Assembly: GCF_900104745.1 (NCBI RefSeq)
Contig: NZ_LT629732.1
Span: 5,567,981 to 5,631,980, forward strand
Direction: 5' to 3'
Origin: Actinopolymorpha singaporensis
GTDB lineage: Bacteria > Actinomycetota > Actinomycetes > Propionibacteriales > Actinopolymorphaceae
Length of the DNA stretch: 64,000 nt
The first letter of the stretch is position 1, and each line of letters begins with the position of its first letter. The notes under the pieces are model-generated. The model searched no databases. It saw nothing but the letters and a program-made list of their open reading frames with translations, and was not told where the DNA came from. Below, piece by piece: positions 34,168 to 51,245 of the stretch. Position numbers and translations under genes: made by a program.

Positions 34168-36201
34168 TCAGCTCGGACGGGACCAGCGAGCCACTTGCCG
34201 AACCACCTTCTTCAGCAGCTCCGCCTGCTCGTCGGGCAGTCTCCCCAGCAGGCGGTACGTCTGGTGGCGCAGCCGCTGGTCCCCGGCGAGCCGGCTCAGC
34301 AGCCGGCGCGGCAGGGCGCGGTAACCGATACCCCGCACTGCCACGATCCGCCCCTCGCGGACGACCGCCACGCCGATCGGGACGGCCGACCGCAGACCGG
34401 AGGAGTCGGTGCGCAGGGCGATCGGGTGCCGTCCGGCCGGCAGAACGGGCACGTCCTCCAACGCCAGCACCGCCGCCCCCGCCGGCTCGATCCGGCCCGG
34501 GAGCGTGCGCGTCCTGCCGGCGCGGCCGACCACCAGCTCGACCTCGTGGGAGCCCGCGTCCGGGCCGGTGCGTACCGGCAGCGAAAGCTGCAGGCGCGAC
34601 CCGCCGAGCTGCAACGGCCTCACCCCCAGCGAGGCGACCGCGCCGGCGAGAGCCTGGTCGCGGTCACCCACCTCGACGGTCAGCCGCCCGGTGGGGAGCA
34701 TCCGCCTGGGTACGACGATCCGGGCAGGGTTCCCGACCACCGCGGGCACCAGCGCCTGCTCCCAGTGAGGGCTGCCGTCCAGAGTGATCCGCAGCGAGCG
34801 ACCGAGGCCGAGGATCTGGACCGACACCGACAGCTCGCAACGGCCGGCGGGAAGCGGCCCACCGCCGGCCAGCCGGTCCGGATCGAAGGAGAACTCGCCC
34901 GAGGCGACCACCTGGTAGCGCGCCTGCGGGCCGTCGTGCGCGACGCGCTCCAGCGAGCCCTTCAGGAGCTCGGGCGCGAACCACCACGTGTTGGTGTCGC
35001 GGTGGTGGACGCGCAGGTCGCCGTGCACGTGCCGGCACGGATCACCGACGTCCCACCCGTCGGGCACGGTGGGCAGGCCGGCGGTGAGCTCGTCGTCGAG
35101 GTAGTACCTCCCCGCGCGTTCGGTGACCACGACCGGGCGCCCGTCGGAGTGGACGAGGACTACGCGCACCCCGATCCGGAACGCACCGTCGCGCCAGCCC
35201 ACCTCCTCGACCGAGAGTTCGGCGTGCACCTTCTCACACCGAGTGGCGAGCTCCCGCAGGCCGTCCAGCCGGTCGCGCAGGAGCAGTACCGCGCGCAGCC
35301 GCACTACCGGCGCCAGGTCGGAGACCACCCCGTCGTCCTCCCGGAAGCGTTCCAGCGCGAGCTTGCGAACCTCCTTGTAGCCCGCGTTGCGGTAGCCCTC
35401 GGAGTAGCGGTTCAGCTTCGGCTCGCGCAGCCGGCCCAACATCTCCGCCCGGAGGAAGCGCCGGAGCAGCCGGTCGCGCAAGTCTCCGGGCTCGGTGCCC
35501 TCCACGACGGCATCCATCACCTGCCGGAGGTTCTGGTAGTAGGCCCTGAGGTTGAGGGCGTTGCCGCTGTTGTTGCCCCCGTCGTCGCGCCGGGTCCAGT
35601 AGTAGCAGACGTAGTCGCCGACGATGGAGACCGACTTCGCGCGGGTGTACGCGCGAGCCATGAACAGCTGGTCCTCCAGGCGGACCTTCCCCTCCGGGAA
35701 CCTGATTCCGTTGTCCAGCAGGAACGAGCGGCGGAACATCTTGTGGGGCGTGGCGCTGTCGATCAGCGGCGCGTCCGCGACGGTGCACGATGCCACCGTC
35801 CGCGCGAAGACGCTGCTGGGACCGGCCATCGTGCCGCCCACCTTGCCGAGGACGATGTCGGCGTCGTTGCTGGATCCCAGGGCGTACATGCGTTCCAGGG
35901 CCTCCGGCGCGAGCTCGTCGTCCTGGTCGACGAACTGGACGTACTCACCGCGCGCGAGGTCGACGCCGACGTTGCGCGGCTTGCCGGGCCAGCCGGAGTT
36001 CTCCTGGTGGTGCACCCGCACGTGCGGGTTCGCGGCGGCGAGTGCGTCGAGCCACCCGGGCGAGTCGTCGGTGGAGCCGTCGTCCACGAACACGATCTCG
36101 TACTCGTCGGGTGGGAGGCTTTGGCCCAACAGTGACTCCGCGCACTGCTGGAGGTACTTTCCGGGGTTGTAGACGGGCACGACGACACTGGCCTTGATCA
36201 T
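34168..36201 (-). CDS. GT2 glycosyltransferase with C-terminal beta domains (copy A)
   Basis: Inverting GT-A glycosyltransferase, cytoplasmic, of the kind that decorates or primes wall polymers. 677 residues from an ATG at 36201 with GGGGGAGTCA directly upstream. The GT2 domain (1-230) has SVVVPVYNPGKYLQQC, FVDDGSTDDSPG, HQENSGWPGKPRN and VDQDDELAPEALE (metal-binding DQD), and LEDQLFMARAYTRAK (catalytic-base region). A helical linker (240-330) and two beta-rich segments (345-677) follow, as in teichoic-acid GlcNAc transferases of the TarS type. It closely resembles the protein at 42506 (shared PLIDS-TPHKMFR and FPEG-RLED motifs). It is the last gene of the minus-strand arm, beside the remnant at 33988. 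Confidence 0.88.
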   Translation of the reverse strand: MIKASVVVPVYNPGKYLQQCAESLLGQSLPPDEYEIVFVDDGSTDDSPGWLDALAAANPHVRVHHQENSGWPGKPRNVGVDLARGEYVQFVDQDDELAPEALERMYALGSSNDADIVLGKVGGTMAGPSSVFARTVASCTVADAPLIDSATPHKMFRRSFLLDNGIRFPEGKVRLEDQLFMARAYTRAKSVSIVGDYVCYYWTRRDDGGNNSGNALNLRAYYQNLRQVMDAVVEGTEPGDLRDRLLRRFLRAEMLGRLREPKLNRYSEGYRNAGYKEVRKLALERFREDDGVVSDLAPVVRLRAVLLLRDRLDGLRELATRCEKVHAELSVEEVGWRDGAFRIGVRVVLVHSDGRPVVVTERAGRYYLDDELTAGLPTVPDGWDVGDPCRHVHGDLRVHHRDTNTWWFAPELLKGSLERVAHDGPQARYQVVASGEFSFDPDRLAGGGPLPAGRCELSVSVQILGLGRSLRITLDGSPHWEQALVPAVVGNPARIVVPRRMLPTGRLTVEVGDRDQALAGAVASLGVRPLQLGGSRLQLSLPVRTGPDAGSHEVELVVGRAGRTRTLPGRIEPAGAAVLALEDVPVLPAGRHPIALRTDSSGLRSAVPIGVAVVREGRIVAVRGIGYRALPRRLLSRLAGDQRLRHQTYRLLGRLPDEQAELLKKVVRQVARWSRPS

Positions 36202-36476
36202 TGACTCCCCCGTGCAGATTTGTCCCCGTGGCTGCTGCAGCGCGCACGTGTCGATGAGGTTCCCGGTTGCTCATCTGGACAAACGGCGTGGAACTGCGAC
36301 GGGTTGCACGCGGAGTTGATCTTTCTTTGACGGCCCCGTGCACAGCAGGACCACGAGCCGGTACGGACAGGACCTGCTACCCGGTCGGACCGACCGGCTG
36401 CGCGGGCCCAGGGGCCGTCCCGGGCCACCTGGGCTACTACCCGGGCTATCGGGCTACTACCGGGCTATCCGGAGTA
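36202..36476. other. Spacer between copy A GT2 and TagF-like genes
   Basis: 275 bases. The distal part is the 20-bp repeat array that overlaps the TagF-like stop. The rest shows no gene and no clear terminator, although the GT2 gene may use its own promoter here. Confidence 0.45.
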
Positions 36477-36490
36477 CTACCCGGGCTGGC
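36431..36490. repeat. Three-unit 20-bp repeat over a stop codon
   Basis: Units GGGCTACTACCCGGGCTATC (36431-36450), a near copy at 36451-36470 and a more diverged copy at 36471-36490. The last contains the TAG stop of the TagF-like gene at 36477-36479, so the repeat has grown outward from the 3' end of that gene. Confidence 0.85.
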
Positions 36491-38477
36491 TCTCCCCCAT
36501 CGCCTCCGGCGCCGGGCTGGGCTCCACGAACGCGGTGACCTGTTCCAGCTGCGGCCCGGCGCCGTGCTGGCCGTCCCACTCCAGGTCGGCCGCGGCCATC
36601 AGCGCGTCCGCAGCGGCGTTCCAGCGTTGCTGCGCGGGCGGCTCGTCGGGCCCGAGAAGGTAGGCGCGCGCCTGCACGCGGGCGTCCGCCTTCGGGTCGC
36701 TGCGCACGATCGTGTCCACGAGCTCGGCGATGTCCGCACCGGGGTTCAACAGGTAGGAGGAGTACGCGCTCGGGAACGCCGCGCGGAAGTCGTCGTCGGA
36801 CAGTCCCTTGGGGTTGGCGACCACGCAGGGCTTGCCGGTGGCCAGGTAGTCCGACACGACGCTGGAGATGTCGGCGACCAGGACGTCGGCCTGGTTGTAC
36901 GCGTCGAACAGGTTCGGCAGCGACCCCTCGACCAGGACGTGCCGCGTGCCCTGCGCGGCCCAGAACACCTCGTGCCACCGCGCCTGCAGGCCCTCGGCCT
37001 CCGCGACGGTCACGTCCTCGTCGGCCAGCCTTGCCTCCAGCTGGGCCAACTCGGCGGCAGCCTGCTGCGGCACCGGCGGCATCTCCCGGATCGCGGCCGT
37101 GATCGCCGCCTGGATCTGCCGGTCGGCCTCCGCCGCACGCCGGTCTCGGGTGCCGGTCAGCGGGTGCGGCTTGTAGATGATGCGGACGGGCAGCGGCGAG
37201 GCCAGCAGCCGGGTCACGAGATCCAGTCCCATCACCGTCAGGGACGTCTGGAAGTCGTCGTCTGTCCAACCCTCCCAGGTGGGAAGGTAGAGAACGGTCA
37301 ACGGACGCTCTGGGGTGATCGGCGGCAGCAGGCCCGTCCGGCGTTCGATCACGTCCAGCTGGGGCCGTCCGACCTCGACGATCTCGTCGTCGCGGACGCC
37401 CACCTGGGCGCGGGCGTAGCGTTCCCGTCCGGCCGGGCCGGCCACCCAGATCTCGTCGTAGACCTTGCTGAACGGGTTGAAGCTCGCCACCTTGTCGCTG
37501 TCGCCGTGGCCGATGAAGACGTGCTTGACCCGTGGCTCGCGCAGCAGGTGGATGTTGTTGCCGACATTGGAGACGAACAACGCGATCCGGGCGTCGGCCA
37601 ACGTGAAGTTCATCAGGTCGACCTGGTTCGGGATGCACACGATCGGCAGCGTGGTGCGCCCGAGATTGCGGATCGCGTGCCGCTGCCGTACGAGCACCAC
37701 ACCCTGGTGCGGCATGCGTTCGACCGTCCGCAGCCACATCTCGGCCTGGTAGAGCGAGGTGGCCGAGCCGCTGAAGTACAGCACGACCTCGGGGTGGTAC
37801 TGATCACGCAGCGCGGCGCTCACCCCGTCCAGGAGCGCCTGGCGTCCGGGCCTCGCGCCGAGCGCGAACAACTGCCGCAGCAGCAGCAGGCTCCCCGCAC
37901 CGACGACCAGGACGTAGAGGACCATCATCATCCCGAACGGCCGGAAGTCGTTGAGACGTACGCTGACCGCGCCCGCGAGCACCGGCAGGAGTCCCAGGGC
38001 GAGCAGCCGGGGCGTGAGGTTGTCCACGAGGATCCCCGGCGTGGAAGCCGGCCGCAGCTCCGGTGGCAGGTCGACGTTGCGCACCTCCACCGGCGGCTGG
38101 GTGCGCCGGCGCACCAGGGTGAGCAGGCCGAGGTAGCCGATCCGGCCGACCGGAACCAGCATCGCCACCAGGCTGACCACCAGGAGTTCCGAGCGGCTCA
38201 TGTCGCGGTTGGCGTCGGTGATCGCGATCAGGAGCAGCAGCAGGAAGATCTGCACGAACGCGCGGTGGGAAATGCCGAACTGTGCCCGGCGCAGCAGGTA
38301 CACCACGGGGCGGAACCTGCGTTCGACCACGATGTCCATCGCCGCGGCGACCAGCAGGAAGAACCCGAAGATCAGCGGGGTGGCCAGGACCGCGGTCACG
38401 ACCAGCGCGGCGTAGCTCGCGACGAGTGCGAAGAGGACGCCGATCAGCGGTCCTCGGCGGACGAGCGTCTGCAGCAC
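36477..38477 (-). CDS. Membrane-anchored TagF-like polyol-phosphate transferase (copy A)
   Basis: 666 residues from a GTG at 38477 with GGGAGAA upstream. The first 235 residues contain about six hydrophobic helices. The remainder is a CDP-glycerol/CDP-ribitol transferase domain of the TagB/TagF family: VLYFSGSATSLYQAEMWL, HVFIGHGDSDKVASFNPF (the HG and K of the family HGTxxK motif), DEIWVAGPAGRERY, EVGRPQLD, VLYLPTWEG, IIYKPHPLTGTRD, and DVLVADISSVVSDYLATGKPCVV. It should add polyol-phosphate units to a lipid-linked teichoic acid at the membrane. The fused helices replace the amphipathic membrane contact of classical TagF. Paralogue of the protein at 38606, 128 bases upstream. Confidence 0.87.
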   Translation of the reverse strand: MLQTLVRRGPLIGVLFALVASYAALVVTAVLATPLIFGFFLLVAAAMDIVVERRFRPVVYLLRRAQFGISHRAFVQIFLLLLLIAITDANRDMSRSELLVVSLVAMLVPVGRIGYLGLLTLVRRRTQPPVEVRNVDLPPELRPASTPGILVDNLTPRLLALGLLPVLAGAVSVRLNDFRPFGMMMVLYVLVVGAGSLLLLRQLFALGARPGRQALLDGVSAALRDQYHPEVVLYFSGSATSLYQAEMWLRTVERMPHQGVVLVRQRHAIRNLGRTTLPIVCIPNQVDLMNFTLADARIALFVSNVGNNIHLLREPRVKHVFIGHGDSDKVASFNPFSKVYDEIWVAGPAGRERYARAQVGVRDDEIVEVGRPQLDVIERRTGLLPPITPERPLTVLYLPTWEGWTDDDFQTSLTVMGLDLVTRLLASPLPVRIIYKPHPLTGTRDRRAAEADRQIQAAITAAIREMPPVPQQAAAELAQLEARLADEDVTVAEAEGLQARWHEVFWAAQGTRHVLVEGSLPNLFDAYNQADVLVADISSVVSDYLATGKPCVVANPKGLSDDDFRAAFPSAYSSYLLNPGADIAELVDTIVRSDPKADARVQARAYLLGPDEPPAQQRWNAAADALMAAADLEWDGQHGAGPQLEQVTAFVEPSPAPEAMGESQPG

Positions 38478-38605
38478 GGGTGGTTCTCCCAGGTGGTCGT
38501 GGACGGCGGCTGGTCAGCGGGCGGCCGGCCGCCCTGTGCCCTGTCGGCAGGTGGCAGATCGGCCGGTGGCAGGTGCGCCGGTGGTGGGCCGGCAGGGGAC
38601 GGTGG

Positions 38606-40507
38606 TCAGGACCCGGCCACCGCCTTCCGCATGCGTTCAAGTGCCGGGGGCTCGGGCGGGCCGAGGAGCTCCGCGCGCAGCTTCGCCCGCTCGGTCGCGG
38701 CCGGATCGACCTGCCCGCGCCCGGCCGCCAGCAACCGGTCCAGGCCCGCGCCGTCGGCACCGAGCAGGTAGCCGCCGCGGCAGGAAGGGTACCGAAAAGT
38801 GAACTCCTCGTCGGGGAGACCGGCCGGGTTGGTGACGGCGTACGGCCGCTCGCCGGCCAGGAAGTCGGTGATCACGCTGGACACGTCGCACACCAGGACG
38901 TCGGCCGCGGCGAAGCAGGCATACAGGTTGAAGTCCGGTCCGGGGACAACGAGGTGGACCGGGGGGCCCGGCCGATCGGCGAGCTGGGCACCGGCCCAGG
39001 CCGCCTGGGCGGTGACCTCCTCCACCCGCGACGTGCCTGCCGGCGCCGTCACGACGTCCAGGTCGTCGCGCGGCACGGCCAGCCGCGCCGGGGACGCGGG
39101 CCGCCGCACCCTGCGGTCGCCCAGCAGCGTGACGATCTCGCGGTGCGCCCGGGCGACCGCCGGGTCACGGGTGCCGGCCAGCGGGTGCGGGCGGTACAGC
39201 ACCCGGACGTCCGGCTCGGCCAGCAGGCGTTCGAGGAGTTCCCGGCCGCCGGCACCGAGCGAGGTCTGGTTCGGCTCGTCGCCGTACCCCTCCCAGGTCG
39301 GGGCGTACAGCACGGTCAGCCTGCCGGGCACCCGATCCGCCCCGCCCACGTCGCCGCGGCCGGCCACCTCGTCGAGCTGAGGCCGGCCGATCTCGACCAC
39401 CCGGGCGGGGTCGACGCCGATCCCGGCTGCCGCGAACCGCTCCCGCGCGGCCGGGCCGGAGACCCACACCTCGTCGTACGCCTTGAGGAAGGGGTTGGTG
39501 GTGACCGGTTTGTCGCTGTCACCGTGCCCGATGAACACGTGCCGGACACCGCGACGGCGGAGCAGGTGCAGGTTGCTCACCGCGTGTGAGACGTACAACG
39601 CCACCCGCAGGTGCGGCAGCGGAAGCTCCATCAACACGGTGCCGTGCTCGACGCACAGCACCGGCAGGGTGGTCGGGCCGAGGTGGCGGAAGGTCTCCCG
39701 GTCGCGCAGGATCAGCAGGACCGACACTTCGAGGCGTTCGAGTGTCTCGACCCACATCTCCAGCTGGTAGAGCGTGTCCGGTCCGGAACCGAAGTGCACC
39801 GCGACCTCGGGCGCGGCCTTCGCCACCCCCTTGTCGACCGCCGCGCGCAGCCTCGCCCGGCTGAGCCGGCGCATCGCGGCCGCGGCGTACGCGAGCGCGG
39901 CGACTCCGGCCAGCACCAGCACCGCGGCGACCACCGCACCCGCCACCAAGGGGCCCTCCGAGCCGGCGAGGACGGCCAGCGCCGCACCGGCCGACAGCGC
40001 GACGTCCGGGCAGCCGAGCGTGGTGTCGGCGTGCCGGCCCAGCACGGGCGGCAGTGCCCGGGGCACCCGGAGTCTTCCCAGGTCGAGCCCACGGCTGAGC
40101 ACCGGCATCCTGCGAGCCCGGTGCACCAGCTCGGCGAGCCCGGCGCCGGCGGCTCGCAGCGCGGCCAGGGCCAGCAACCCGGCCACGGCGACCAGGAACC
40201 AGCTCCGCGGCGCTTCGGAACGGACGAGGAACGCCAGGACGGCCACCGCGCGCAGCAGGCCGCGCCACTGGGCACCCAGGCCGATCCGGCCCAGGGCCCA
40301 GCCGACGAACGGCGCCCGCAGCGTGCCGGCAACCTCCAGGGCGGCCACCGCCAGCGCGGTCACCAGCAGGCCGGCCGCGGTGGGGACCAGGGCGGTGACC
40401 AGCAGGCCGGCGTACGCGAGGACCAGACAACCGGCCAGGCCGAGCGCCCGGCGCCCGGTGTCCGGCGCGGGTGCCCGCTCGGTGACCTGCACCAGACGTG
40501 TGGTCAT
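38606..40507 (-). CDS. Membrane-anchored TagF-like polyol-phosphate transferase (copy B)
   Basis: 633 residues from an ATG at 40507 that overlaps the stop of the cytidylyltransferase gene (ATGA). Same plan as the gene at 36477: about six N-terminal hydrophobic segments (25-215), then a TagF-type domain with VAVHFGSGPDTLYQLEMWVETL, HVFIGHGDSDKPVTTNPF, DEVWVSGPAARERF, EIGRPQLD, VLYAPTWEG, VLYRPHPLAGTRD and DVLVCDVSSVITDFLAGERPYAV. Direct coupling to a predicted CDP-ribitol synthase suggests CDP-ribitol is its donor (inference). The two copies may act as primer and polymerase, as TagB/TagF or TarK/TarL do. Confidence 0.87.
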   Translation of the reverse strand: MTTRLVQVTERAPAPDTGRRALGLAGCLVLAYAGLLVTALVPTAAGLLVTALAVAALEVAGTLRAPFVGWALGRIGLGAQWRGLLRAVAVLAFLVRSEAPRSWFLVAVAGLLALAALRAAGAGLAELVHRARRMPVLSRGLDLGRLRVPRALPPVLGRHADTTLGCPDVALSAGAALAVLAGSEGPLVAGAVVAAVLVLAGVAALAYAAAAMRRLSRARLRAAVDKGVAKAAPEVAVHFGSGPDTLYQLEMWVETLERLEVSVLLILRDRETFRHLGPTTLPVLCVEHGTVLMELPLPHLRVALYVSHAVSNLHLLRRRGVRHVFIGHGDSDKPVTTNPFLKAYDEVWVSGPAARERFAAAGIGVDPARVVEIGRPQLDEVAGRGDVGGADRVPGRLTVLYAPTWEGYGDEPNQTSLGAGGRELLERLLAEPDVRVLYRPHPLAGTRDPAVARAHREIVTLLGDRRVRRPASPARLAVPRDDLDVVTAPAGTSRVEEVTAQAAWAGAQLADRPGPPVHLVVPGPDFNLYACFAAADVLVCDVSSVITDFLAGERPYAVTNPAGLPDEEFTFRYPSCRGGYLLGADGAGLDRLLAAGRGQVDPAATERAKLRAELLGPPEPPALERMRKAVAGS

Positions 40508-42144
40508 CCGCGGCGCCGGTCGTTCCCGTCGCCCGTGCGGGTGCTGCCCCCGCCGTCCACCCGGTCCACGTCCTCCACCGGGTCCACGTCGTCCACCTCG
40601 TCGGCGTCGTCGGCGGCGTGTTCCTCCACGTGCTCGAGCGCGGTCGAGATGTCCCGGGCGTGGTCGTGGTCGCCGGGCGGTGTGGTGACCGGCGCCGGAG
40701 CGGGGTCGCGCCGGACGTCGACGACGTTGCCCGTCTGTTCGGACAACAGGACGTCGAGGGAGGCCAGGCCGACGTCACGCGCGGGCAGCAAGGTGCCCGG
40801 CGGCTCCTCCCCGAACGCGCGGGTGCGCATCGGCGTCTGGGTGCGTTCGGGGTTGACGCAGTTGACCTGGATCCCGTCGGCGGCCCACTCGTCGGCCAGC
40901 GCCTGGGTGAGGTTGACCACCGCCGCCTTGGTCGAGGAGTACAGGCTGTAGCCCGCCCGGCCACGGGTGTAGGAGCTGGACGTGAACAGCAGCAGGTGGC
41001 CGCGGCTCTCGGCGAGGTAGCGGTGCGCCGCCCGCGCGACGTAGACGGGGCCCAGGAGGTTGACCTGCAGGCTCTGGGCGATGAGGTCGTCCGGAGCATC
41101 GGCCAGCGGCACGGTGTGCAGCACACCTGCCGTCACCGCGACGTAGTCGATCCGGCCGGACTCCTCGTACGCCTGTGCCAGCGCGGCACGCACGTGCTCG
41201 GGATCCTCCACGTGGGTGCCCGTCGCGGACCTGCTGAAGCTGAACACCCTGGCGCCGAACTCGCGCGCGGCGTCCCCGATCTCGGCTCCGATGCCGTAGC
41301 TGCCGCCGAAGACGACCAGCGTCTTGCCCGCGAGGAGCTCGCCGACCTGCTCGGTCGGCACCGGGGTGGGCGGGGTGTGCGAGCCGAGCCGGAAGAGCTG
41401 GTCGGCGAGGAACACGTCGATCGGATAGGTGACCTTCATGTTGCGCTCGGAGCCCTCGACCACCGTGATGGGCACCTCGGGGAGGTAACGCAGCACGACC
41501 GCGCAGTCGTCGGTGGCGGCGAAGTTCGGGTCGTCCGCGGCAACCTCGTAGGCGCGGCGGATCGTGGACAGCCGGAACGCCTGCGGGGTCTGCCCGCGCC
41601 GCAGCCGTGCCCGGCTGGGGATGTCGGTGATGAGCCCGTCGTCGACGACCACGATCGTGTCCGCGGACGGGATCGCCACGTCGACCGCCGAGAAGGTGTC
41701 CAGCGCCTTCACGCAGTCGGCGATGATGCGGTGGTCCAGCAGCGGGCGTACGGCGTCGTGGAACAACACCTTGGCCTCGTCCGGCCCGACCGCCTCCAGC
41801 GCCCGGCGGGTGGTGTCGTTGCGGGTCTCCCCGCCCTCCAGGACGCGGGTGACCTTGCGGAAGCCGGCGTTCTTGATGATCTTCTCGGCGTCCTCGGTCC
41901 AGCCCGGAGCCATCAGTACGACGATCTCGTCGATGTCCGGCGAGGTCTCGAACACCTCGACGGTGTGCTCGAGGAGCGGCTTGCCGGCCACCTTGAGTAG
42001 CTGCTTGGGGAGGCGAAGGCCCACCCGGGTTCCCTGGCCACCGGCCAGCACCACTCCCACCGCGCGCAGGGGCTCACCTGTCGTCGGTTCGCCTGTCGCC
42101 GTCACCGCTGGCGTGGGCGTGGTCTCGGGCCTCGTGTCGGCCAC
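40504..42144 (-). CDS. Bifunctional ribitol-5-P cytidylyltransferase / SDR reductase
   Basis: Fused enzyme resembling Haemophilus Bcs1: the SDR half would reduce ribulose-5-P to ribitol-5-P and the IspD/TarI half would make CDP-ribitol. 546 residues from a GTG at 42144; GAGGGGA lies about 12 bases upstream. The cytidylyltransferase (28-255) has GVVLAGGQGTRVGLRLPKQLL, EGGETRNDTTRRAL, LFHDAVRPLL and ADTIVVVDDG. The SDR (275-490) has TLVVFGGSYGIGAEIG and the catalytic YSLYSSTKAAVV. The C-terminal 45 residues are Asp/Glu-rich from GTCCACGTC-type DNA repeats. It could instead be an IspD-type isoprenoid enzyme, but the fusion and TagF-like neighbours favour teichoic acid. Confidence 0.87.
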   Translation of the reverse strand: MADTRPETTPTPAVTATGEPTTGEPLRAVGVVLAGGQGTRVGLRLPKQLLKVAGKPLLEHTVEVFETSPDIDEIVVLMAPGWTEDAEKIIKNAGFRKVTRVLEGGETRNDTTRRALEAVGPDEAKVLFHDAVRPLLDHRIIADCVKALDTFSAVDVAIPSADTIVVVDDGLITDIPSRARLRRGQTPQAFRLSTIRRAYEVAADDPNFAATDDCAVVLRYLPEVPITVVEGSERNMKVTYPIDVFLADQLFRLGSHTPPTPVPTEQVGELLAGKTLVVFGGSYGIGAEIGDAAREFGARVFSFSRSATGTHVEDPEHVRAALAQAYEESGRIDYVAVTAGVLHTVPLADAPDDLIAQSLQVNLLGPVYVARAAHRYLAESRGHLLLFTSSSYTRGRAGYSLYSSTKAAVVNLTQALADEWAADGIQVNCVNPERTQTPMRTRAFGEEPPGTLLPARDVGLASLDVLLSEQTGNVVDVRRDPAPAPVTTPPGDHDHARDISTALEHVEEHAADDADEVDDVDPVEDVDRVDGGGSTRTGDGNDRRRG

Positions 42145-42505
42145 GGTCGGGTCACATCCCCTCTGGTCGTCACTTTTCGTACCCGTCGACGCACGCGGTG
42201 CGTCCTTGTGTCCGGATCTGCCAGAGCCCGGCGGGGTCTCCACCCACTTCCGGCGACCGGGAACCGTCGGGCGCGGCTCCCAGGTCCGGTAGGTACGGTG
42301 CCAGGGATGGTAGTTGGCCGGTGCGCCAGGTGTCCGGTCGGCTGCCGTCTGCTGGACATCGGGTGGATGTCCAGCAAGCCGGCGCCGACTCCCCCGGCGC
42401 GGCCGGACGTCTGGCCGAACGCACTCCGCTACCCTCGCATTTCGGACCGACAGGCAAACGATCGACGCATTCGAGGCCCCGTGGGAGGGGCAGAGGACGG
42501 GGCTG
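42145..42505. other. Divergent intergenic region of the glycopolymer locus
   Basis: 361 bases between the cytidylyltransferase/SDR gene and the copy B GT2 gene. It carries the perfect inverted repeat at 42351-42375. No other gene-like structure is seen; frames crossing it are not conserved. Confidence 0.55.
42351..42375. promoter_or_regulatory. Perfect inverted repeat between divergent wall-polymer genes
   Basis: GCTGGACATC and GATGTCCAGC are exact complements around GGGTG. The site is 131 bases from the GT2 start and 207 from the SDR-fusion start, fitting a shared operator, though a hairpin in the GT2 leader is possible. Confidence 0.6.
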
Positions 42506-44644
42506 ATGACTGAGGAACTCAAGGTCAGCGTGGTCGTTCCGGTCTACAACCCCGGGCGCTACGTCGAGGACTGCATCGCGTCGCTGCTGCGGCAGAGCCT
42601 GCCGGCGGAGGAGTTCGAGGCAATCTTCGTCGACGACGGGTCGACCGACGAGACTCCGGCCCGGCTGGACGCGCTGGCTGCGGAGCACCCGCACATGCGG
42701 GTGATCCACCAGGAGAACTCCGGCTGGCCCGGCAAGCCGCGAAACGTCGGTATCGACGCGGCCCGCGGTGAGTACGTCTTCTTCGTCGACAACGACGACT
42801 GGCTCGGCGACCAGGCCCTCGAACGCATGTACGCCTTCGCCCGGGAGAACGACTCCGACGTCGTGATCGGCAAGATGGCCGGCAAGGGGCGCGGAGTCCC
42901 CCGGGAACTGTTCCGGCGTACCTACCCCAAGGCGACCCTGGCCACCGCGCCGCTGATCGACAGCCTGACCCCGCACAAGATGTTCCGGAAGGCGTTCCTC
43001 GACGAGAACAACCTCCGCTTCCCCGAGGGCCGGCGGCGGCTGGAGGACCACGTCTTCGTCACCGCGGCGTTCTTCGCCGCCAAGACGATCTCGGTGCTCA
43101 GCGACTACGTCTGCTATTACCACGTACGCCGGGAGGACTCCTCCAACGCGGGCTTCCAGCGGATGGACCCGCACGCCTACTTCGCCAACCTCAACGAGGC
43201 CCTGGACATCGTCGAGGCCAACACCGAGCCCGGCCGGCTGCGGGACGGCCTGTACCGCCGCTGGCTGCGGGTGGAGATGGTCGAGCGCCTGCGCGGCAGC
43301 CGGCTGCTGGCGGCTCCGCCCGACTACCGCCGCGAGCTCTTCGACGAGATCGCGGACACCTGCGAACGCTTCGGGCCCGGAGTGGCCGCCGGGCTACCGC
43401 CCAGCCAGCGGGTGGTCGCGGCCCTGATCCGCGCGCGCCGGCTCGACGACCTGGTGCGGCTGGCCCACTGGGAGAGCGGCATCAGGCACCACGCCGAGCT
43501 GGAGGACCTCGCCTGGCACGGCGGCACGCTGCGAATGTCGCTGACCTCGCAGCTGCGGGCCGGCCGGGAGCCGATGACCTTCCGGCACGTCGACGGGCGC
43601 GACATCCTCGACCCGCCACTGTCGGCCGAGGCTGCCGAGCTGGTCTCCGCGGCAGAGCTGGACGCCACCGACCGGCTGACGCAGAGCAAGGTGGACGTCA
43701 TCCTCCGCTCCCGCGACAACGGCGCCGAGCACTATCTCCCCGTGACCTTCACCTCCGACCGGCCCGGGGTCGGCGCGGGCGACTCCACCTTCGCACTGGA
43801 GTTGCGCACGGAGGCCACGCTGGACGCCGACACCGCCGCCGGCGGCGCGCCGCTGGAGCGGGGCGTCTGGGACGTCGTCGCCAGGATCAGCTCCTGCGGC
43901 TGGAGGAAGGACACCCGGCTGGGTTCGGTCCGCACGGCACGAGCCGGCGCGCACCGTGCCCCGGCGGTGGCGGGCACGCCGCCTCGGGTGATCACGCCGT
44001 ACTGGACGGACAAGGGCAACCTGTCCGTCGACGTCGCCCAGCGGACCTCCAGCGTCGGCAACGACCTGCTGATCTCCGGCGCGGCCACGCTGGGTCCCGC
44101 CCGCGCCGCCGCGGACTCCGCGGGTTCCGCCGACGGGGTGGGTGAGTCCGAACTCCTGCTCGCGCTCCCTCTTCGCACCGTGGTGGCGACCGAGATCGAC
44201 GTGGCCGCCGTCCAGCTGCTGCACGAGGGCAGCGGCGTGGCGGTGCAGGTCCCCGGCCGGCTCGTCCCGTACGTCCATGACGGGATGGGCTGCTCGCGGC
44301 TGTCCGCGCAGTTCTCCCGGGACGCCCTCAGCGCCGGCCGCTGGTCGGTGCGAGTGCGCCTGGTCGCCGCCGAGCAGGGCACGTTCGTCCCGTTGCCGGT
44401 GACCGTGACGGTGCCGGCCGGCGGCGGCCTGCCGGCGTTGAGCGAGTTCGGCCGGCGGGCCGGGAGCAACGGCCACGTTCCCTTCCGGGACTCCGAGGAC
44501 GGCGCGGGAACGACCGAGGGCCTGCGGCCGGAGCTGCTCGCCTGGCTGCGCACAGGTGGGCGCCTCGGCCGCCGAGCCGGTAGGAGCCTCGGCCGCCGGG
44601 CCGGCAGGTTGGTCACCACCCGGCTCAGGCGGGACCGCGGCTGA
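42506..44644 (+). CDS. GT2 glycosyltransferase with C-terminal beta domains (copy B)
   Basis: 712 residues from an ATG at 42506 (MTEELKVSVVVPVYNPGRY) preceded by GAGGACGGGG. The GT2 domain has IFVDDGSTDETPAR, HQENSGWPGKPRN, VDNDDWLGDQALE (metal site) and RLEDHVFVTAAFFAAK. Beyond 330 there are beta-rich domains with VDVILRSRDNGAEHYLPVTF-type sequence. The last 40 residues are Gly/Arg-rich (GRLGRRAGRSLGRRAGR), possibly for membrane or polymer contact. It shares most N-terminal motifs with the copy A protein at 34168, so the two arose by duplication; the divergence suggests different sugars or acceptors. It likely heads a plus-strand unit with rfbC, 95 bases downstream. Confidence 0.88.
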   Translation: MTEELKVSVVVPVYNPGRYVEDCIASLLRQSLPAEEFEAIFVDDGSTDETPARLDALAAEHPHMRVIHQENSGWPGKPRNVGIDAARGEYVFFVDNDDWLGDQALERMYAFARENDSDVVIGKMAGKGRGVPRELFRRTYPKATLATAPLIDSLTPHKMFRKAFLDENNLRFPEGRRRLEDHVFVTAAFFAAKTISVLSDYVCYYHVRREDSSNAGFQRMDPHAYFANLNEALDIVEANTEPGRLRDGLYRRWLRVEMVERLRGSRLLAAPPDYRRELFDEIADTCERFGPGVAAGLPPSQRVVAALIRARRLDDLVRLAHWESGIRHHAELEDLAWHGGTLRMSLTSQLRAGREPMTFRHVDGRDILDPPLSAEAAELVSAAELDATDRLTQSKVDVILRSRDNGAEHYLPVTFTSDRPGVGAGDSTFALELRTEATLDADTAAGGAPLERGVWDVVARISSCGWRKDTRLGSVRTARAGAHRAPAVAGTPPRVITPYWTDKGNLSVDVAQRTSSVGNDLLISGAATLGPARAAADSAGSADGVGESELLLALPLRTVVATEIDVAAVQLLHEGSGVAVQVPGRLVPYVHDGMGCSRLSAQFSRDALSAGRWSVRVRLVAAEQGTFVPLPVTVTVPAGGGLPALSEFGRRAGSNGHVPFRDSEDGAGTTEGLRPELLAWLRTGGRLGRRAGRSLGRRAGRLVTTRLRRDRG

Positions 44645-44739: not shown

Positions 44740-45342
44740 TTGCAGCCCCTGAGCATCGACGGCGCCTGGCTCGCCCAGCCGCCGGTCTTCCCCGACAGCC
44801 GAGGCCTGTTCTCGCCGTGGTTCTCCGGCGAGGAGTTCCGCAAGGCCACCGGCCACGACCTGGCGCTGCGCCAGGCCAACCTCTCGGTGTCCGCCCGGGG
44901 GGTGCTGCGCGGTGTCCACTTCGCCGACGTGCCGCCGAGCCAGGCGAAGTACGTCACCTGCGTACGCGGCGCCCTCCTCGACGTGGTCGTGGACATCCGG
45001 GTCGGCTCGCCGACCTACCGCCAGTGGGAGGCGGTACGCCTCGACGAGGAGACCAGGCACGCGGTCTACCTCAGTGAGGGACTCGGGCACGCGGTGATGG
45101 CGCTCACCGACGACGCGACGCTGCTGTACCTCTGCTCCGAAGGCTTCGCTCCCACCCGCGAACACGGCGTCCACCCGCTCGACCCGGCGCTCGGGATCGA
45201 CTGGCCGGCCGACCTCGAGCCGCTGCTGTCGGACAAGGACGCGGCCGCGCCCACCCTGGCCGAAGCGGAGCACCAGGGCCTGCTGCCGTCGTACGCCGAC
45301 TGTCAGGCCTATCGCGAGCAGCTGCGCTCCCAGGCCGGTTAG
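44740..45342 (+). CDS. rfbC: dTDP-4-dehydrorhamnose 3,5-epimerase (RmlC)
   Basis: Third step of dTDP-L-rhamnose synthesis. 200 residues from a TTG at 44740, seven bases after GAGGAG. The cupin fold carries VLRGVHFADVPPSQAKYVTC, with His60 and Lys70 matching the catalytic His and Lys of M. tuberculosis RmlC (His62 and Lys72), and Tyr130 in LLYLC matching its Tyr132. The later active-site Tyr (Tyr138 there) is Phe136 here (SEGFAP). It is separated from rfbABD but all four steps are encoded within 6.4 kb. A strong hairpin ends the unit. Confidence 0.92.
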   Translation: MQPLSIDGAWLAQPPVFPDSRGLFSPWFSGEEFRKATGHDLALRQANLSVSARGVLRGVHFADVPPSQAKYVTCVRGALLDVVVDIRVGSPTYRQWEAVRLDEETRHAVYLSEGLGHAVMALTDDATLLYLCSEGFAPTREHGVHPLDPALGIDWPADLEPLLSDKDAAAPTLAEAEHQGLLPSYADCQAYREQLRSQAG

Positions 45343-45426: not shown

Positions 45427-45849
45427 TCAGTCGTGGTCGTGATGGCCGAACCCCTCCGGCGGCTGGTCGAGAAAGCCGGTGACCTCGGTGATCCGGCCCG
45501 CGTCGTCGAGGTGGAGTACGTCCGTCCCGGTGGCGAACGTCGTGCCGCCGACGACGATCTCCCACCGCAGGCGAGCCCGCTCGTGGTGGGTCTCCGGCAC
45601 CTCGCGTGCCTGGAACCGGTAGTCCGGGAAGTGCTGCGCGAACTGGTCCCGGAACGCGACCAGCTCCTCGACTCCCCGCATGACGGCCACGGGCGTTCGA
45701 GAGCTCACCCCGGCGGCGAACGTCTGCGCGGCGAGCCGCTGCTGGTCCTCCGGTGCCGCCGCGTTCCAGAACTCGACGTACCGCTCGACTGCGTTGGCGG
45801 GGTGGGGCGGTTTGGTGGGATGGGCAGGGTTGGTGGTGGTGTCGGTCAT
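45427..45849 (-). CDS. SnoaL-like / NTF2-fold protein
   Basis: 140 residues from an ATG at 45849 with GGAGGAG seven bases upstream. The sequence has the cone-shaped NTF2/SnoaL fold pattern: VERYVEFWNAAAPEDQQRLAAQTF, the FRDQFAQHFPDYRFQ segment, and a beta strand with RLRWEIVVGGTTFATGTDVLHLDDAGRITEVTGFLD. The C-terminus is His/Asp-rich (HHDHD). Members include ester cyclases and many proteins without known activity, so no reaction is assigned. It is divergent from an XRE regulator, with a palindrome between, and is probably its regulated partner. Confidence 0.8.
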   Translation of the reverse strand: MTDTTTNPAHPTKPPHPANAVERYVEFWNAAAPEDQQRLAAQTFAAGVSSRTPVAVMRGVEELVAFRDQFAQHFPDYRFQAREVPETHHERARLRWEIVVGGTTFATGTDVLHLDDAGRITEVTGFLDQPPEGFGHHDHD

Positions 45850-45950
45850 GTGCAGGCTCCTCCGCTTCGCGAGGACGTGGGTGGCCGCACGGGTTTCGTG
45901 CGGCGGCTGTTCACAACGCCACCACGGTGACGCGGGCGGCGGCGGCGCGG

Positions 45951-45971
45951 CAATAACCTCGAAGGTCATTG
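45951..45971. promoter_or_regulatory. Operator-like inverted repeat between SnoaL-like and XRE genes
   Basis: CAATAACCT and AGGTCATTG flank CGA, a 9-bp inverted repeat with one mismatch in otherwise GC-rich DNA, 26 bases before the XRE start and 102 before the SnoaL-like start. It is a likely binding site for the adjacent regulator. Confidence 0.6.
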
Positions 45972-45996
45972 CCCGGCCGGGCGGAAGCAGGCCATC

Positions 45997-46956: not shown

Positions 46957-47964
46957 TCAGCTGCCGGCGCGCAGGCTGCGGCGTACGCGGTTGCGGACGA
47001 GCTGGCGTACGTCGTCGGGCAGCCGGTCGACGACCCTCTTGCCCGCCGCGCGAACAGCCGGCTTTCCGGCCGCGCCGCGGATCAGCCGCTGGGACACGCT
47101 GGCCTGGCCGTTCCCGCCGGCCGGTGCGGCCGAGGCGGGCTTGGGGGCCGCCTTGGGCTTGGGCGCCGCCTTCGGTGCGGCCGGGCGCGGATCGGGCTGC
47201 CAGCCGGCGAGGGAGAGCGGTACGTCGGGCGCCTCACCGAGCACCTTCTCGATCTCGGTGCGTACCGCGGTCAGCTCCGCTGCGTCGCCGCTCTCGCGGG
47301 CGGCGATGAAGCGGGGCCAGAAGTCCGCCTTGAGCACGGTCTCCGGGGCCATCGCGACTCGCCGGTCGATCAGCACGTCGGGAACCTGCTGCGGGTCGGG
47401 CTGGATGTAGGCCTCGACGATCTCGTCGTACTTGTCGGCGAGCACGGTGTTGGCCGGGTCGAGACCGAGGACGACGAGCACACCGGTCGGCCCGGTGTCC
47501 ATCAGCGCGAGGATCAGGTCGGGACGGTAACGCTGCAGCACCGGCACGATCTTGTAGACGTCACCGGTCCAGCCGCCGGTGTGCCGGTCGCGGGCCGCCT
47601 CGTCGACGTTGCGCGGCAGCATGTCGTCGAACACCACGACGGTGCCGGCGTGGGCGTGCCGTTCGGTGTTGATGAAGTCGCGGAGCGCGAACTCGAACAG
47701 GTGCATCCCGTCGATGAACGCCAGGTCGATGGCCGCGCCGTTCAGGTGCTCGAACGGCTGCTCGCGGGCGAAGAAGTCGTCACTGGTGGCCCGCACCATG
47801 TGCAGGTCGCAGCGAACCTCCTTCACGACCTTGAACGCCGGGTCGACGGCGACGGTGGGTACGCGGGACAGGGCGAGGCTTCGGCCGTCGTTGATGCCCA
47901 CCTCGAAATAGGCACGCGGCCGGGAGACCTCGTGCAGCGTGCGGAGGAACTCGTGGCGAAGCAC
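46957..47964 (-). CDS. SAM-dependent methyltransferase-like protein
   Basis: 335 residues from a GTG at 47964 with GAGGAG nine bases upstream. The N-terminal 190 residues have a class I methyltransferase pattern: AYFEVGINDGRSLAL (cofactor loop), VAVDPAF (acidic end of strand 2), LAFIDGMHLFEFALRDF and VVFDDMLPRN. This is the Methyltransf_24/CmcI-like group, often found with surface polysaccharide genes. The C-terminal third is an Ala/Pro/Lys repeat (AAPKAAPKPKAAPKPASAAP) and a very basic end (RNRVRRSLRAGS), unlike the family. It could O-methylate rhamnose or another wall-polymer sugar (inference from context). Confidence 0.75.
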   Translation of the reverse strand: MLRHEFLRTLHEVSRPRAYFEVGINDGRSLALSRVPTVAVDPAFKVVKEVRCDLHMVRATSDDFFAREQPFEHLNGAAIDLAFIDGMHLFEFALRDFINTERHAHAGTVVVFDDMLPRNVDEAARDRHTGGWTGDVYKIVPVLQRYRPDLILALMDTGPTGVLVVLGLDPANTVLADKYDEIVEAYIQPDPQQVPDVLIDRRVAMAPETVLKADFWPRFIAARESGDAAELTAVRTEIEKVLGEAPDVPLSLAGWQPDPRPAAPKAAPKPKAAPKPASAAPAGGNGQASVSQRLIRGAAGKPAVRAAGKRVVDRLPDDVRQLVRNRVRRSLRAGS

Positions 47965-48120: not shown

Positions 48121-48981
48121 TCACCTTAGCGACGAAAACGCCGCTCGCAACGCATCCCGCCACTCTCGCAGTGGTGGGACTCCGATCTGGGCCCAGCGGT
48201 CGTGGCCGAGCACGCTGTACGCCGGGCGCGGCGCGGGCCGCGGAAACTTGTCGGTGGTCGTCGGCCGGACCCGCTCGGGGTCGGCTCCGAGCAGCCTGAA
48301 CACCTCGCGGGCGAGCTCGCACCAGGTCGCCTGCCCCGCGCTGGTGGCGTGGAACACTCCGCGCGCCTCCGGGCGGGTGCCGAGCGCGACCAGAGCGCCC
48401 GCGACGTCGGCCGTCCACGTCGGCTGGCCGCGCTGGTCGTCCACGACGTCGAGGGTGTCCCGCTCGCCCTCGAGCCGGATCATCGTCCGGACGAAGTTGG
48501 CGCCGTGCTCGCCGTAGAGCCAGGCGGTGCGGACCACGGTCCCGGTCTCGGGCAGCGCGGCGAGGACGGCCTGCTCGCCGGCGAGCTTGGTGCGGCCGTA
48601 CGCCGTCCGCGGCCCGGTCGGGTCGTCCTCGGCGTAGGGCCGGGTGCCGTCGCCGGCGAACACGTAGTCGGTGGACACGTGCAGCAGCCGGCCGCCGCGC
48701 TCGGCGCAGGCCCGGGCGAGCACCCGCGGCCCTTCGGCGTTGATCGCGTGAGCCGCGTCCTCGTGCTCCTCGGCGTCGTCGACCGCGGTGTAGGCGGCGC
48801 AGTTGACCACGACGTCGGGAGCGTGGTCGGCCATCGCCTTGGCCACCGCGGCGGCGTCGGTCACGTCGAGGTCGGCGCGGGTCAGCCCGAGGATGTCCGC
48901 GTCGTCAACGGCGTCGGCGCGGAGCCGGGACACGACGTCCCGGCCGAGCATCCCGCCCGCGCCGGTGACGAGCCACCTCAC
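48121..48981 (-). CDS. rfbD: dTDP-4-dehydrorhamnose reductase (RmlD)
   Basis: Last step of dTDP-L-rhamnose synthesis, NAD(P)H dependent. 286 residues from a GTG at 48981 that overlaps the rfbB stop (GTGA). Rossmann motif WLVTGAGGMLGRDVV, then VVVNCAAYTAVDDAE, STDYVFAGDG and the catalytic YGRTK in RTAYGRTKLAGEQAV. It lies last in the rfbA-(small ORF)-rfbB-rfbD minus-strand unit. Confidence 0.95.
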   Translation of the reverse strand: MRWLVTGAGGMLGRDVVSRLRADAVDDADILGLTRADLDVTDAAAVAKAMADHAPDVVVNCAAYTAVDDAEEHEDAAHAINAEGPRVLARACAERGGRLLHVSTDYVFAGDGTRPYAEDDPTGPRTAYGRTKLAGEQAVLAALPETGTVVRTAWLYGEHGANFVRTMIRLEGERDTLDVVDDQRGQPTWTADVAGALVALGTRPEARGVFHATSAGQATWCELAREVFRLLGADPERVRPTTTDKFPRPAPRPAYSVLGHDRWAQIGVPPLREWRDALRAAFSSLR

Positions 48982-49985
48982 GCGAGACCCGCCCGCTGCT
49001 TCAGCGGCTCCCACCAGGCACGGTTGTCGCGGTACCAGGCGACCGTCTCGGCCAGCCCGGACTCGAAGTCGTGCCGCGGCTCGTACCCCAGCTCGGCGTT
49101 GATCTTGCGCCAGTCGACGGAGTACCGGCGGTCGTGGCCCTTGCGGTCCTCGACGTAGTCGACGCTGTCCCAGGTAGCGCCGCACGCGGACAGCAGCCGG
49201 TCGGTGAGTTCCTTGTTGGTGATCTCCGTGCCGCCGCCGATGTTGTAGACCTCGCCGGCCCGGCCCTTCTCCAGGACGAGCGCGATGCCCTGGCAGTGGT
49301 CGTCGACGTGCAGCCAGTCGCGGATGTTCAGGCCGTCGCCGTACAGCGGCACCTTCCCGCCGTCGAGCAGGTTGGTGATGAACAGCGGGATGACCTTCTC
49401 CGGGAACTGGTACGGCCCGTAGTTGTTGGAGCAGCGGGTGACGCGTACGTCCAGACCGTGGGTGCGGTGGTAGGCCAGCGCGATCAGGTCGCTGGACGCC
49501 TTCGAGGCGGAGTACGGCGAGTTGGGCGCGAGCGGGTCGGTCTCCGGCCAGGAGCCCTCGGCGATCGAGCCGTACACCTCGTCGGTCGACACGTGCACGA
49601 ACGGGCCGATCTCGCGCCGGTGCGCGGCATCCAGCAGCGTCTGGGTGCCCACGACGTTGGTGACCACGAAGTCGGCGGCACCGGTGATGGACCGGTCGAC
49701 GTGCGACTCGGCGGCGAAGTGCACCACCGCGTCGTGGTCGGCCAGCAGGCTGTCGACCAGCCCGGCGTCGGTGATGTCGCCCTCGACGAACGCGAAACCC
49801 GGCTGGTCACGCACCGGGTCGAGGTTGGCCGGGTTGCCGGCGTAGGTCAGCTTGTCGAGCACCGTGACCCGCGAGCCGGCCAGGCCCGGGTAGGCGCCCG
49901 AGAACAGGGAGCGGACGAAGTGGGAGCCGATGAATCCGGCGCCGCCGGTGACGAGAATGCGCGAGGTCGCGCCGGGTTGAGGCAC
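48978..49985 (-). CDS. rfbB: dTDP-glucose 4,6-dehydratase (RmlB)
   Basis: Makes dTDP-4-keto-6-deoxyglucose, NAD dependent. 335 residues from a GTG at 49985 with GGGGAG six bases upstream. LVTGGAGFIGSHFVR, FAAESHVDRSI, STDEVYGSI and the catalytic YSASK in NSPYSASKASSDL are canonical, as is the VTRCSNNYGPYQFPEKVIP signature. Its Shine-Dalgarno lies inside the last codons of the 28-codon ORF upstream, so translation may be coupled to it. Confidence 0.96.
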   Translation of the reverse strand: MPQPGATSRILVTGGAGFIGSHFVRSLFSGAYPGLAGSRVTVLDKLTYAGNPANLDPVRDQPGFAFVEGDITDAGLVDSLLADHDAVVHFAAESHVDRSITGAADFVVTNVVGTQTLLDAAHRREIGPFVHVSTDEVYGSIAEGSWPETDPLAPNSPYSASKASSDLIALAYHRTHGLDVRVTRCSNNYGPYQFPEKVIPLFITNLLDGGKVPLYGDGLNIRDWLHVDDHCQGIALVLEKGRAGEVYNIGGGTEITNKELTDRLLSACGATWDSVDYVEDRKGHDRRYSVDWRKINAELGYEPRHDFESGLAETVAWYRDNRAWWEPLKQRAGLA

Positions 49986-49987
49986 GG

Positions 49988-50074
49988 TTAACTCCCCTGT
50001 GCTCGCTCGGTCAGGGACTCGGTGATGGACTCGGTGTTGGACTGGGTGTTGGACTGGGTGAGGGACTCGGTCAT
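49988..50074 (-). CDS. 28-residue repeat-encoded ORF between rfbA and rfbB
   Basis: The ATG at 50074 overlaps the rfbA stop as ATGA, and its TAA lies two bases before the rfbB GTG. The product is a run of Thr-Glu-Ser type tetrapeptides (MTESLTQSNTQS ...), ending LTERAQGS, encoded by six 12-base units. No family is recognised. Coupling on both sides suggests that it is at least translated as a bridge that keeps ribosomes moving from rfbA to rfbB. It may be a by-product of repeat expansion. Confidence 0.42.
   Translation of the reverse strand: MTESLTQSNTQSNTESITESLTERAQGS
50003..50074. repeat. Six-unit 12-bp repeat between rfbA and rfbB
   Basis: On the minus strand, six 12-base units of the form xTxACCGAGTCC / xxCACCCAGTCC run from 50074 to 50003 without interruption of the frame. 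Positions 4-12 are strongly conserved between units. Confidence 0.88.
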
Positions 50075-51138
50075 GAACTGATCTGGATCCGGCTGTGGTC
50101 GCCGAGGACCAACCGGTGTGCCTTGGGTACGCGAGGTGCCGGGGTGACCTCCACGTGGTGACCGACCAGCGACGCCTCGATCCGGCGTACGCCCGCGATC
50201 GAGGAGTCGTGCAGCACGATCGAGAACTCGATCTCGGAGTCGATCAGGTGGCAGCCGTGCTGGACGGACGTGAACGGCCCGACGTAGGAGTCGACGACCT
50301 TCGTGCCCGCACCGATGATGACAGGTCCGACGATGCGCGACCCGGAGATCTCCGCACCCTCCTCGATCACCACCCGGCCGATGATCTCCGACACCTCGTC
50401 CACGGTGCCCTCGACGCGGGGCTCGAGCGTCTCCAGCACGGAGCGGTTGACCTCGAGCATGTCCTCGACGTTCCCGGTGTCCTTCCAGTACCCCGAGATC
50501 ACCGTGGAACGAACGTCGTGGCCGTTGTCGATCAGCCACTGGATGGCGTGGGTGATCTCGAGCTCGCCCCGCCGGGACGGCTCGATGCTGTCGACCGCCT
50601 CGTGGATGGCGTCGGTGAAGAGGTAGACGCCGACCAGGGCGAGGTCGCTCTTGGGCTGCTGCGGCTTCTCCTCCAGTGCCACCACGGCGCCGGCGGCGTC
50701 CAGCTCGGCGACCCCGAACGCGGTCGGGTTGGGCACCTTGGTGAGCAGGATCTGCGCCTCGGGCCGGTCGGCGCGGAACGCCTCCACCAGGGAGGTGATG
50801 CCGCCGACGATGAAGTTGTCCCCGAGGTACATCACGAAGTCCTCGTCACCGAGGAAATCCCGGGCGATCAGGACCGCGTGCGCGAGCCCGAGCGGCGCCT
50901 CCTGCGGGATGTAGGTGACCGAGATCCCGAACTGCGCGCCGTCGCCCACCGCCTCCTTGATCTCCTCGGCGGTGTCCCCCACCACGATGCCGACCTCGGT
51001 GATGCCGGCCTCGGCGATCGCCTCCAGCCCGTAGAAGAGGACGGGCTTGTTGGCGACCGGCACCAACTGCTTGGCCGACGTGTGCGTGATCGGTCGAAGA
51101 CGTGTGCCTGCTCCACCCGAGAGCACCAGTGCTCGCAT
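50071..51138 (-). CDS. rfbA: Glucose-1-phosphate thymidylyltransferase, long form (RmlA)
   Basis: Makes dTDP-glucose from dTTP and glucose-1-P. 355 residues from an ATG at 51138; the Shine-Dalgarno is weak, and 14 in-frame upstream codons are not conserved. The nucleotidyltransferase domain starts MRALVLSGGAGTRLRPITHTSAKQLVPVANKP, with MYLGDNFIVGG and VALEEKPQQPKSDLA. The C-terminal 110 residues carry hexapeptide-type repeats (EISGSRIVGPVIIGAGTKVV), marking the long form common in actinobacteria and antibiotic clusters, as opposed to the 290-residue enterobacterial RmlA. The stop overlaps the next ORF. Confidence 0.95.
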   Translation of the reverse strand: MRALVLSGGAGTRLRPITHTSAKQLVPVANKPVLFYGLEAIAEAGITEVGIVVGDTAEEIKEAVGDGAQFGISVTYIPQEAPLGLAHAVLIARDFLGDEDFVMYLGDNFIVGGITSLVEAFRADRPEAQILLTKVPNPTAFGVAELDAAGAVVALEEKPQQPKSDLALVGVYLFTDAIHEAVDSIEPSRRGELEITHAIQWLIDNGHDVRSTVISGYWKDTGNVEDMLEVNRSVLETLEPRVEGTVDEVSEIIGRVVIEEGAEISGSRIVGPVIIGAGTKVVDSYVGPFTSVQHGCHLIDSEIEFSIVLHDSSIAGVRRIEASLVGHHVEVTPAPRVPKAHRLVLGDHSRIQISS

Positions 51139-51245
51139 GAGTCGACACCATAGCCGTCCGCACTGGGCGTCGTCCGCCACGGCTCGGCGAGGGATGGGTA
51201 CCAGCGTGAGTATCGGGACGGATGCGAAGATTTCCCGGAGCCGGG

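Follow-up and report, generated by a model that had tools for sequence, protein, structure and literature searches.

A probable wall teichoic acid locus of Actinopolymorpha singaporensis with two TagF-like transferases joined to a six-helix membrane domain

Introduction

The known teichoic acid polymerases are membrane-associated, soluble GT-B enzymes from Firmicutes. A locus of Actinopolymorpha singaporensis, in which two TagF-like proteins appear to carry a polytopic membrane domain of their own, raises the question of what polymer such enzymes make and what the added domain does. We know of no wall chemistry for Actinopolymorpha, and found no paper on it among the searched papers that name the genus; the ribitol teichoic acid of Streptomyces, according to a recent study, reportedly carries the receptor for umbrella toxins. 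The locus lies in a window of 64,000 nucleotides (contig NZ_LT629732.1, positions 5,567,981 to 5,631,980), and an original prediction, made from the letters of the window, had described it as a locus for a ribitol-type wall polymer, with two paralogous pairs of enzymes.

Results

Arrangement of the locus

The five open reading frames (A to E) of the original prediction were recovered, coordinates included (Table 1).

Table 1. Features of the locus (positions in the window)
Feature	Position	Strand	Basis
A: GT2 glycosyltransferase with TarS linker, 677 aa	34168..36201	-	Pfam PF00535, PF22181
B: membrane-fused TagF-like polyol-phosphate transferase, 666 aa	36477..38477	-	PF04464, AlphaFold, Foldseek
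B, six-helix membrane domain, residues 9-206	37860..38453	-	AlphaFold, hydropathy, conservation
B, GT-B catalytic domain, residues 225-633	36579..37805	-	AlphaFold, alignment
C: second membrane-fused TagF-like transferase, 633 aa, divergent paralogue	38606..40507	-	PF04464, tree
C, six-segment membrane domain, about residues 22-216	39860..40444	-	Hydropathy, alignment with B
D: TarI-like ribitol-5-phosphate cytidylyltransferase fused to SDR	40504..42144	-	PF01128 + PF00106
E: GT2 glycosyltransferase with TarS linker, 712 aa, paralogue of A	42506..44644	+	Pfam
F: RmlC-like dTDP-4-dehydrorhamnose 3,5-epimerase	44740..45342	+	PF00908; TIGR01221 149.3 bits, cut-off 155.75
G: methyltransferase (Methyltransf_24)	46957..47964	-	PF13578
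H: RmlD	48121..49185	-	TIGR01214 308.9 bits, match from residue 71
I: RmlB dTDP-glucose 4,6-dehydratase	48978..49985	-	TIGR01181 448.8 bits
J: RmlA glucose-1-phosphate thymidylyltransferase, long form	50071..51180	-	TIGR01208 459.4 bits

E is transcribed divergently from A to D, and the gene order reads recX-recA-(small gene)-A-B-C-D on one side of the divergence and E-F-(insert)-G-rmlD-rmlB on the other. By their coordinates, the end of D and the start of C overlap by 4 bases, which suggests coupled translation. Within the family, Actinopolymorpha and one further genus keep most of the order, and a third genus retains B and C; the nearest named relatives are Actinopolymorpha rutila (B protein 93% identical), A. 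pittospori and A. alba. Since the B-C-D(-E) block is syntenic in related genomes, with B identities of 54-93%, its arrangement is not due to chance. The RmlC-like protein F scores slightly below the cut-off of its model, the true start of H probably lies inside the listed frame, and G, a neighbour kept in several syntenic loci, is a possible modifier of the sugar decoration. The insert between rmlC and the methyltransferase gene (45427-46842) holds an HTH-regulator-like frame (45997-46842) and an opposite-strand frame ending at 45427; this small gene pair has matches in loci L025, L027 and L028 and none in L029 or L030. An ordinary Lhr-type helicase of 1666 aa with winged-helix domains occupies positions 53472-58472. 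A PADLOC search for anti-phage systems gave no match at the locus, and no RNA elements were found between positions 30000 and 52000.

The catalytic domain of B and C

B and C had been predicted to consist of six N-terminal membrane segments followed by a TagF-type domain, and Pfam, hydropathy, AlphaFold and the distribution of charges all agree with this composition. PF04464 matches the C-terminal half only, with 33.9 bits for B and 32.9 bits for C (cut-off 22.1). In the AlphaFold model of B (pLDDT 77.5, pTM 0.68), a proposed check on the original prediction, six helices precede a GT-B domain, and a Foldseek search with the whole model ranked TagF (3l7i) first (E 1.1e-7). When the whole model was re-aligned, UDP-GlcNAc 2-epimerases, TarL, TagF, Bcs3 (8a0c) and MurG were found at Z 17-20; the values for 3l7k (Z 17.7) and 8va1 (Z 18.6) are equalled by other GT-B enzymes. 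The modelled GT-B fold of B is secure, the Z values leaving its nearest relative undecided. B and C agree with TagF and TarL (PF04464; PDB 3l7i, 8va1) in the GT-B fold, in the histidines of HG and HP and in the PTxxG and DxSS motifs, and presumably in the transfer of polyol phosphate; they differ in the added six-helix N-terminal membrane domain, and their sequence matches to the TagF and TarL PDB chains are marginal (E 0.014-0.55).

The motifs of B are HGDSDK (324-329), PTWEG (399-403), PHP (437-439) and DISSVVSD (536-543). The His and Lys of HGDSDK, whose absence the original prediction had named as evidence against itself, are kept at 97-98% in 59 homologues, and H324 and H438 (B numbering) are each found in 98% of these. 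The catalytic histidines of TagF are H444, in a WHG motif, and H584, with roles described in PMC11666461; the region of H438 aligns to KMHP of TarL, and the W of WHG is replaced by G or N in the fused family. The form GHGDSD is carried by B, C and all of the eight TarIJ-adjacent Streptomyces-like enzymes (8/8), and the form NHGESD by 14/14 enzymes of a second Streptomyces-like clade. An NHGE enzyme is present in several genomes that have the fusion and no D (for example G142, G182, G242, G316, G348, G410 and G431). We hypothesize from these motifs that the NHGE enzymes of such genomes may use a different donor, and the GHGD/NHGE split may report donor choice. Three Streptomyces-like loci (L076, L077, L088) have GHGD and NHGE fused TagF genes together, in opposite orientation.

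The membrane domain of B and C

Hydropathy places six hydrophobic segments within the first ~205 residues of both proteins, at matching places in most orthologues. The model of B has helices at residues 9-31, 34-54, 69-86, 95-126, 154-175 and 179-206, and identical helices were obtained when the membrane domain was modelled alone (pLDDT 73.6). The loops assigned to the inside hold a mean of 15.7 Lys/Arg against 1.4 outside, with inside exceeding outside in 59 of the 59 aligned members; the inside loops are also longer, yet their Lys/Arg density is also higher. The positive-inside pattern indicates, therefore, that the catalytic domain is cytosolic. The objection that the N-terminal segments might not be membrane helices, anticipated in the original prediction, finds no footing in these six helices and their charges.

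Certain positions of the domain are conserved among the 59 aligned members: an acidic residue at 48 (97%; D 61% and E 36%), R72 (97%), R76 (92%; Q in B), P129 (88%), R133 (93%), N134 (80%) and D136 (80%). R72 and R76 begin helix 3, and the cytosolic loop that follows helix 4 contains the stretch P-V-x-[TV]-R-N-x-D. The conserved Arg residues may hold the lipid acceptor by its diphosphate, and their position on the cytosolic side makes it plausible, though no more, that the helices bind or move this lipid. It may also be that the domain is a mere anchor, which replaces the membrane-binding surface of the firmicute TagF and has no role toward the acceptor. The lower conservation of the membrane segments (mostly 0.28-0.49 per 20-residue block, against up to 0.75 in the GT-B core) speaks for an anchor, as does the finding that no Pfam domain matched in the membrane part of B or C. 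However, D/E48, R72, R76, R133 and P129 are kept almost as strictly as the catalytic residues, which an anchor would not need. We regard an anchor-only function as quite conceivable, while leaning somewhat away from it; it is compatible with the mechanism proposed below except for the last step.

With the membrane domain alone, Foldseek gave no match below E 0.001. The best matches by VIA-align were CDP-alcohol phosphotransferases, namely 6h59 (Z 9.9), 7drk (8.8), 7drj (8.6) and 4mnd (8.4); a designed helical repeat also reached Z 8.8, and helical bundles attain such values by their common arrangement. The membrane model of B, of moderate confidence, aligns over most of its length with PgsA1 (6h59), PGP synthase (7drk) and IPCT-DIPPS (4mnd). 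The motif DxxDGxxAR...GxxxDxxxD of the CDP-alcohol enzymes was not found in the membrane domain of B or C: there is no DxxDG, the catalytic aspartates are absent, and GxxxRxxxR stands where GxxxDxxxD is expected. Homology by sequence was rejected, as hhalign returned a probability of 0.2% for the 59-sequence profile against 49 relatives, with a score that was reached by 11 of 60 block shuffles, and the resemblance is kept only as a structural lead. A rather doubtful idea, though one that the structures suggest, is that the domain is related to the CDP-alcohol phosphotransferase fold but has no catalytic activity: its metal-binding aspartates would have become R72 and R76, and it would dock the diphosphate of the polyprenyl-linked acceptor and feed the growing chain to the TagF domain.

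Distribution of the fusion

A search for the same fusion in other genomes, also foreseen in the original prediction, covered 395 Actinomycetes genomes including our own, or 394 with it left out. The fusion was found in 69 of the 394, a count of strong matches to the fused family; the presence of the membrane part was itself inspected in the 59 sequences of the alignment. D was found in 64 and both in 53. The two are strongly associated (Fisher test, shared ancestry ignored), and the 53 genomes with both hold 54 copies of D, 41 of which lie less than 1 kb and 6 more less than 10 kb from the fusion (47/54). The arrangement with two enzymes is found outside Actinopolymorpha too, since 11 other genomes have at least two fused genes within 6 kb. 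Two loci from a family of the same order (L035 and L036; genomes G008 and G016) gave TagF-type matches in very long open frames, of 1210-2407 codons; perhaps one protein there holds several such domains, or the frames adjoin one another.

The two paralogous pairs of the original prediction stand as far as homology goes, A and E being 38% identical and B and C 44% over the catalytic ~400 residues. In a tree from a quick search, with long branches, B is placed beside the enzymes that other families have as a single copy, and C forms its own clade, confined in the sample to its own family; a recent tandem duplication of B and C was rejected on the grounds of this separate clade. The membrane fusion has a clustered distribution on the tree, with two changes, one of them due to a truncated locus copy (L050_3644). 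No relative was found in viral contigs, and the plasmid collection gave one match, on a Nonomuraea replicon, where the fusion is also beside D. We conclude that the fused TagF/TarL enzyme is a widespread, little-described actinobacterial variant and not a singular locus.

The Streptomyces counterpart

Streptomyces-like loci (family f22) have the order L21-L27-TarIJ-TagF-GT2, in which TagF is the membrane-fused protein. A 2025 Cell paper (PMC13274773) gives, for S. griseus, SGR_4953 as L21, SGR_4954 as L27, SGR_4956 as TarIJ and SGR_4957 as TagF. Judged by gene order, SGR_4957 should belong to the fused family, as the neighbours L21, L27 and TarIJ in that paper are shared with the Streptomyces-like fused loci; compared with S. 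griseus as described there, Actinopolymorpha has two fused genes, in tandem and adjoining recA. The same paper reports a ribitol-phosphate wall teichoic acid, determined by NMR, for S. griseus and S. antibioticus, which in S. griseus is poly(ribitol phosphate). A Streptomyces counterpart named TagF beside TarIJ is thus already known from that paper and, together with the wide occurrence of the fusion in Actinomycetes, it weakens the claim that the locus is unusual. No published description of the membrane fusion of TagF was recognised in the literature searched.

The candidate donor

D is a fusion of an IspD domain to an SDR domain by Pfam, as predicted; read by eye, its likely start is the GTG at 42144, giving 546 aa. 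It passes NF001183 for ribitol-5-phosphate cytidylyltransferases (168.3 bits, cut-off 166) and also TIGR00453 for ispD (185.6 bits, cut-off 181.3). The best PDB chains for its IspD half are of the TarI type (3f1c, 6xhp, 4jis and 2vsh; E ~1e-34), against 3e-28 for IspD. That D is the IspD of the MEP pathway was ruled out by a separate, better-scoring IspD elsewhere in the genome. Bcs1 of Haemophilus influenzae type b joins a cytidylyltransferase to a reductase, and D is built likewise. TarJ is a medium-chain dehydrogenase and a separate protein, whereas the reductase of D is an SDR and is fused. Thus, D combines an IspD-type domain of the ribitol subfamily with a reductase partner, as expected of a CDP-ribitol synthase of the TarI/Bcs1 type.

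It is this neighbourhood that suggests that B and C could act as TarL-type polymerases, turning CDP-ribitol into poly(ribitol phosphate). Regarding the predicted ribitol-type polymer, the TagF-type transferases with their own membrane domain, the TarI-like D and the separate IspD are borne out, and from these we infer the polymer itself. B and C might instead use another CDP-polyol or glycerol phosphate, or their product might be a mixed glycosyl-polyol-phosphate polymer; D would then serve only one of the two enzymes, or a side product. The family is not tied to ribitol, because 16 sampled genomes have the fusion without D; moreover, the wall teichoic acid of S. griseus also bears terminal glycerol phosphate (PMC13274773), and a CDP-alcohol-type cluster with a G1PDH-like gene and an NTP transferase gene lies at 3.16 Mb in our genome. 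Conversely, a profile search found no TagD-type glycerol-3-phosphate cytidylyltransferase in the genome, with a model that matched in 12 of 14 control genomes and exceeded its cut-off in only 2. The proximity of D to the fusion in most genomes with both, its overlap with C here, and the GHGD motif that B and C share with the TarIJ-adjacent clade also argue against a different donor, which we consider unlikely. We favour CDP-ribitol.

The putative decoration enzymes

A and E, correctly predicted as GT2 enzymes, have a GT2 domain followed by a TarS linker (PF22181, 92.4 and 127.8 bits, respectively), as do TarS and TarP. The nearest PDB chains of A include TarS (5tz8/5tze) and TarP (6h1j), and E likewise matches TarS and TarP. 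By sequence, A is a probable wall teichoic acid decorating enzyme. In Streptomyces, UtrC is a TarS-like enzyme that acts on ribitol teichoic acid (PMC13274773). In contrast to TarS, TarP and UtrC, A and E are near dTDP-rhamnose genes, an indication that their sugar is not GlcNAc. Two other loci (L079 and L082) likewise combine D and the fusion with rml genes, which makes a rhamnose-type decoration a reasonable inference, not a result.

Other wall polymer genes in the genome

If the locus made a capsule-like or secreted polymer instead of a teichoic acid linked to peptidoglycan, the lack of any LCP ligase or exporter beside its genes would be accounted for, and the capsule polymerase Bcs3 is among the fold relatives of B. 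However, two LCP genes accompany a TagGH-like ABC pair elsewhere in the genome, which has six LCP genes in all and three genes of the WecG/TagA type, and in Streptomyces the counterparts are wall teichoic acid genes (PMC13274773). A capsule-like product thus seems very unlikely, and a wall teichoic acid is preferred. The ABC pair and two LCP genes are part of a second envelope cluster on contig 1 (L115, about 3157800-3169700), which also holds genes for a GT2, a G1PDH-like Fe-ADH, the NTP transferase and two CDP-alcohol phosphotransferases, of which one has DUF5941. This locus may supply another CDP-polyol or an export step.

Discussion

We consider it probable that this is a wall teichoic acid locus in which B and C prime and extend poly(ribitol phosphate) on a lipid carrier, and A and E decorate it. 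The poly(ribitol phosphate) reading owes its strength to a close parallel with chemistry measured in Streptomyces, an organism other than Actinopolymorpha. The SDR half of D would make ribitol-5-phosphate, and its TarI half would add CMP to form CDP-ribitol. C and B, each held at the membrane by the six-helix domain that it carries and with the GT-B domain in the cytosol, would transfer ribitol-5-phosphate to an undecaprenyl-diphosphate glycolipid, one of the two setting the first unit or units and the other polymerising. Our guess is that C primes and B polymerises, because relatives of B occur alone in other actinobacteria. A and E would then add a sugar to the chain, plausibly rhamnose made by the neighbouring dTDP-L-rhamnose genes. 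Lastly, the membrane domain would keep the enzyme at the bilayer, and the Arg residues on the cytosolic side may hold the diphosphate head of the acceptor.

New here are the conserved Arg signature of the membrane domain, the GHGD/NHGE split of the active site, and a weak structural resemblance to CDP-alcohol phosphotransferases that has no sequence-profile support. The fusion serves to mark teichoic acid loci in Streptomyces and related bacteria, and the polytopic domain with its Arg signature gives the question of how such enzymes hold the lipid acceptor an answer that can be tested. Should the domain prove to be a dead relative of the CDP-alcohol phosphotransferases, Actinomycetes would widely use a teichoic acid synthase that is embedded in the membrane as a single chain.
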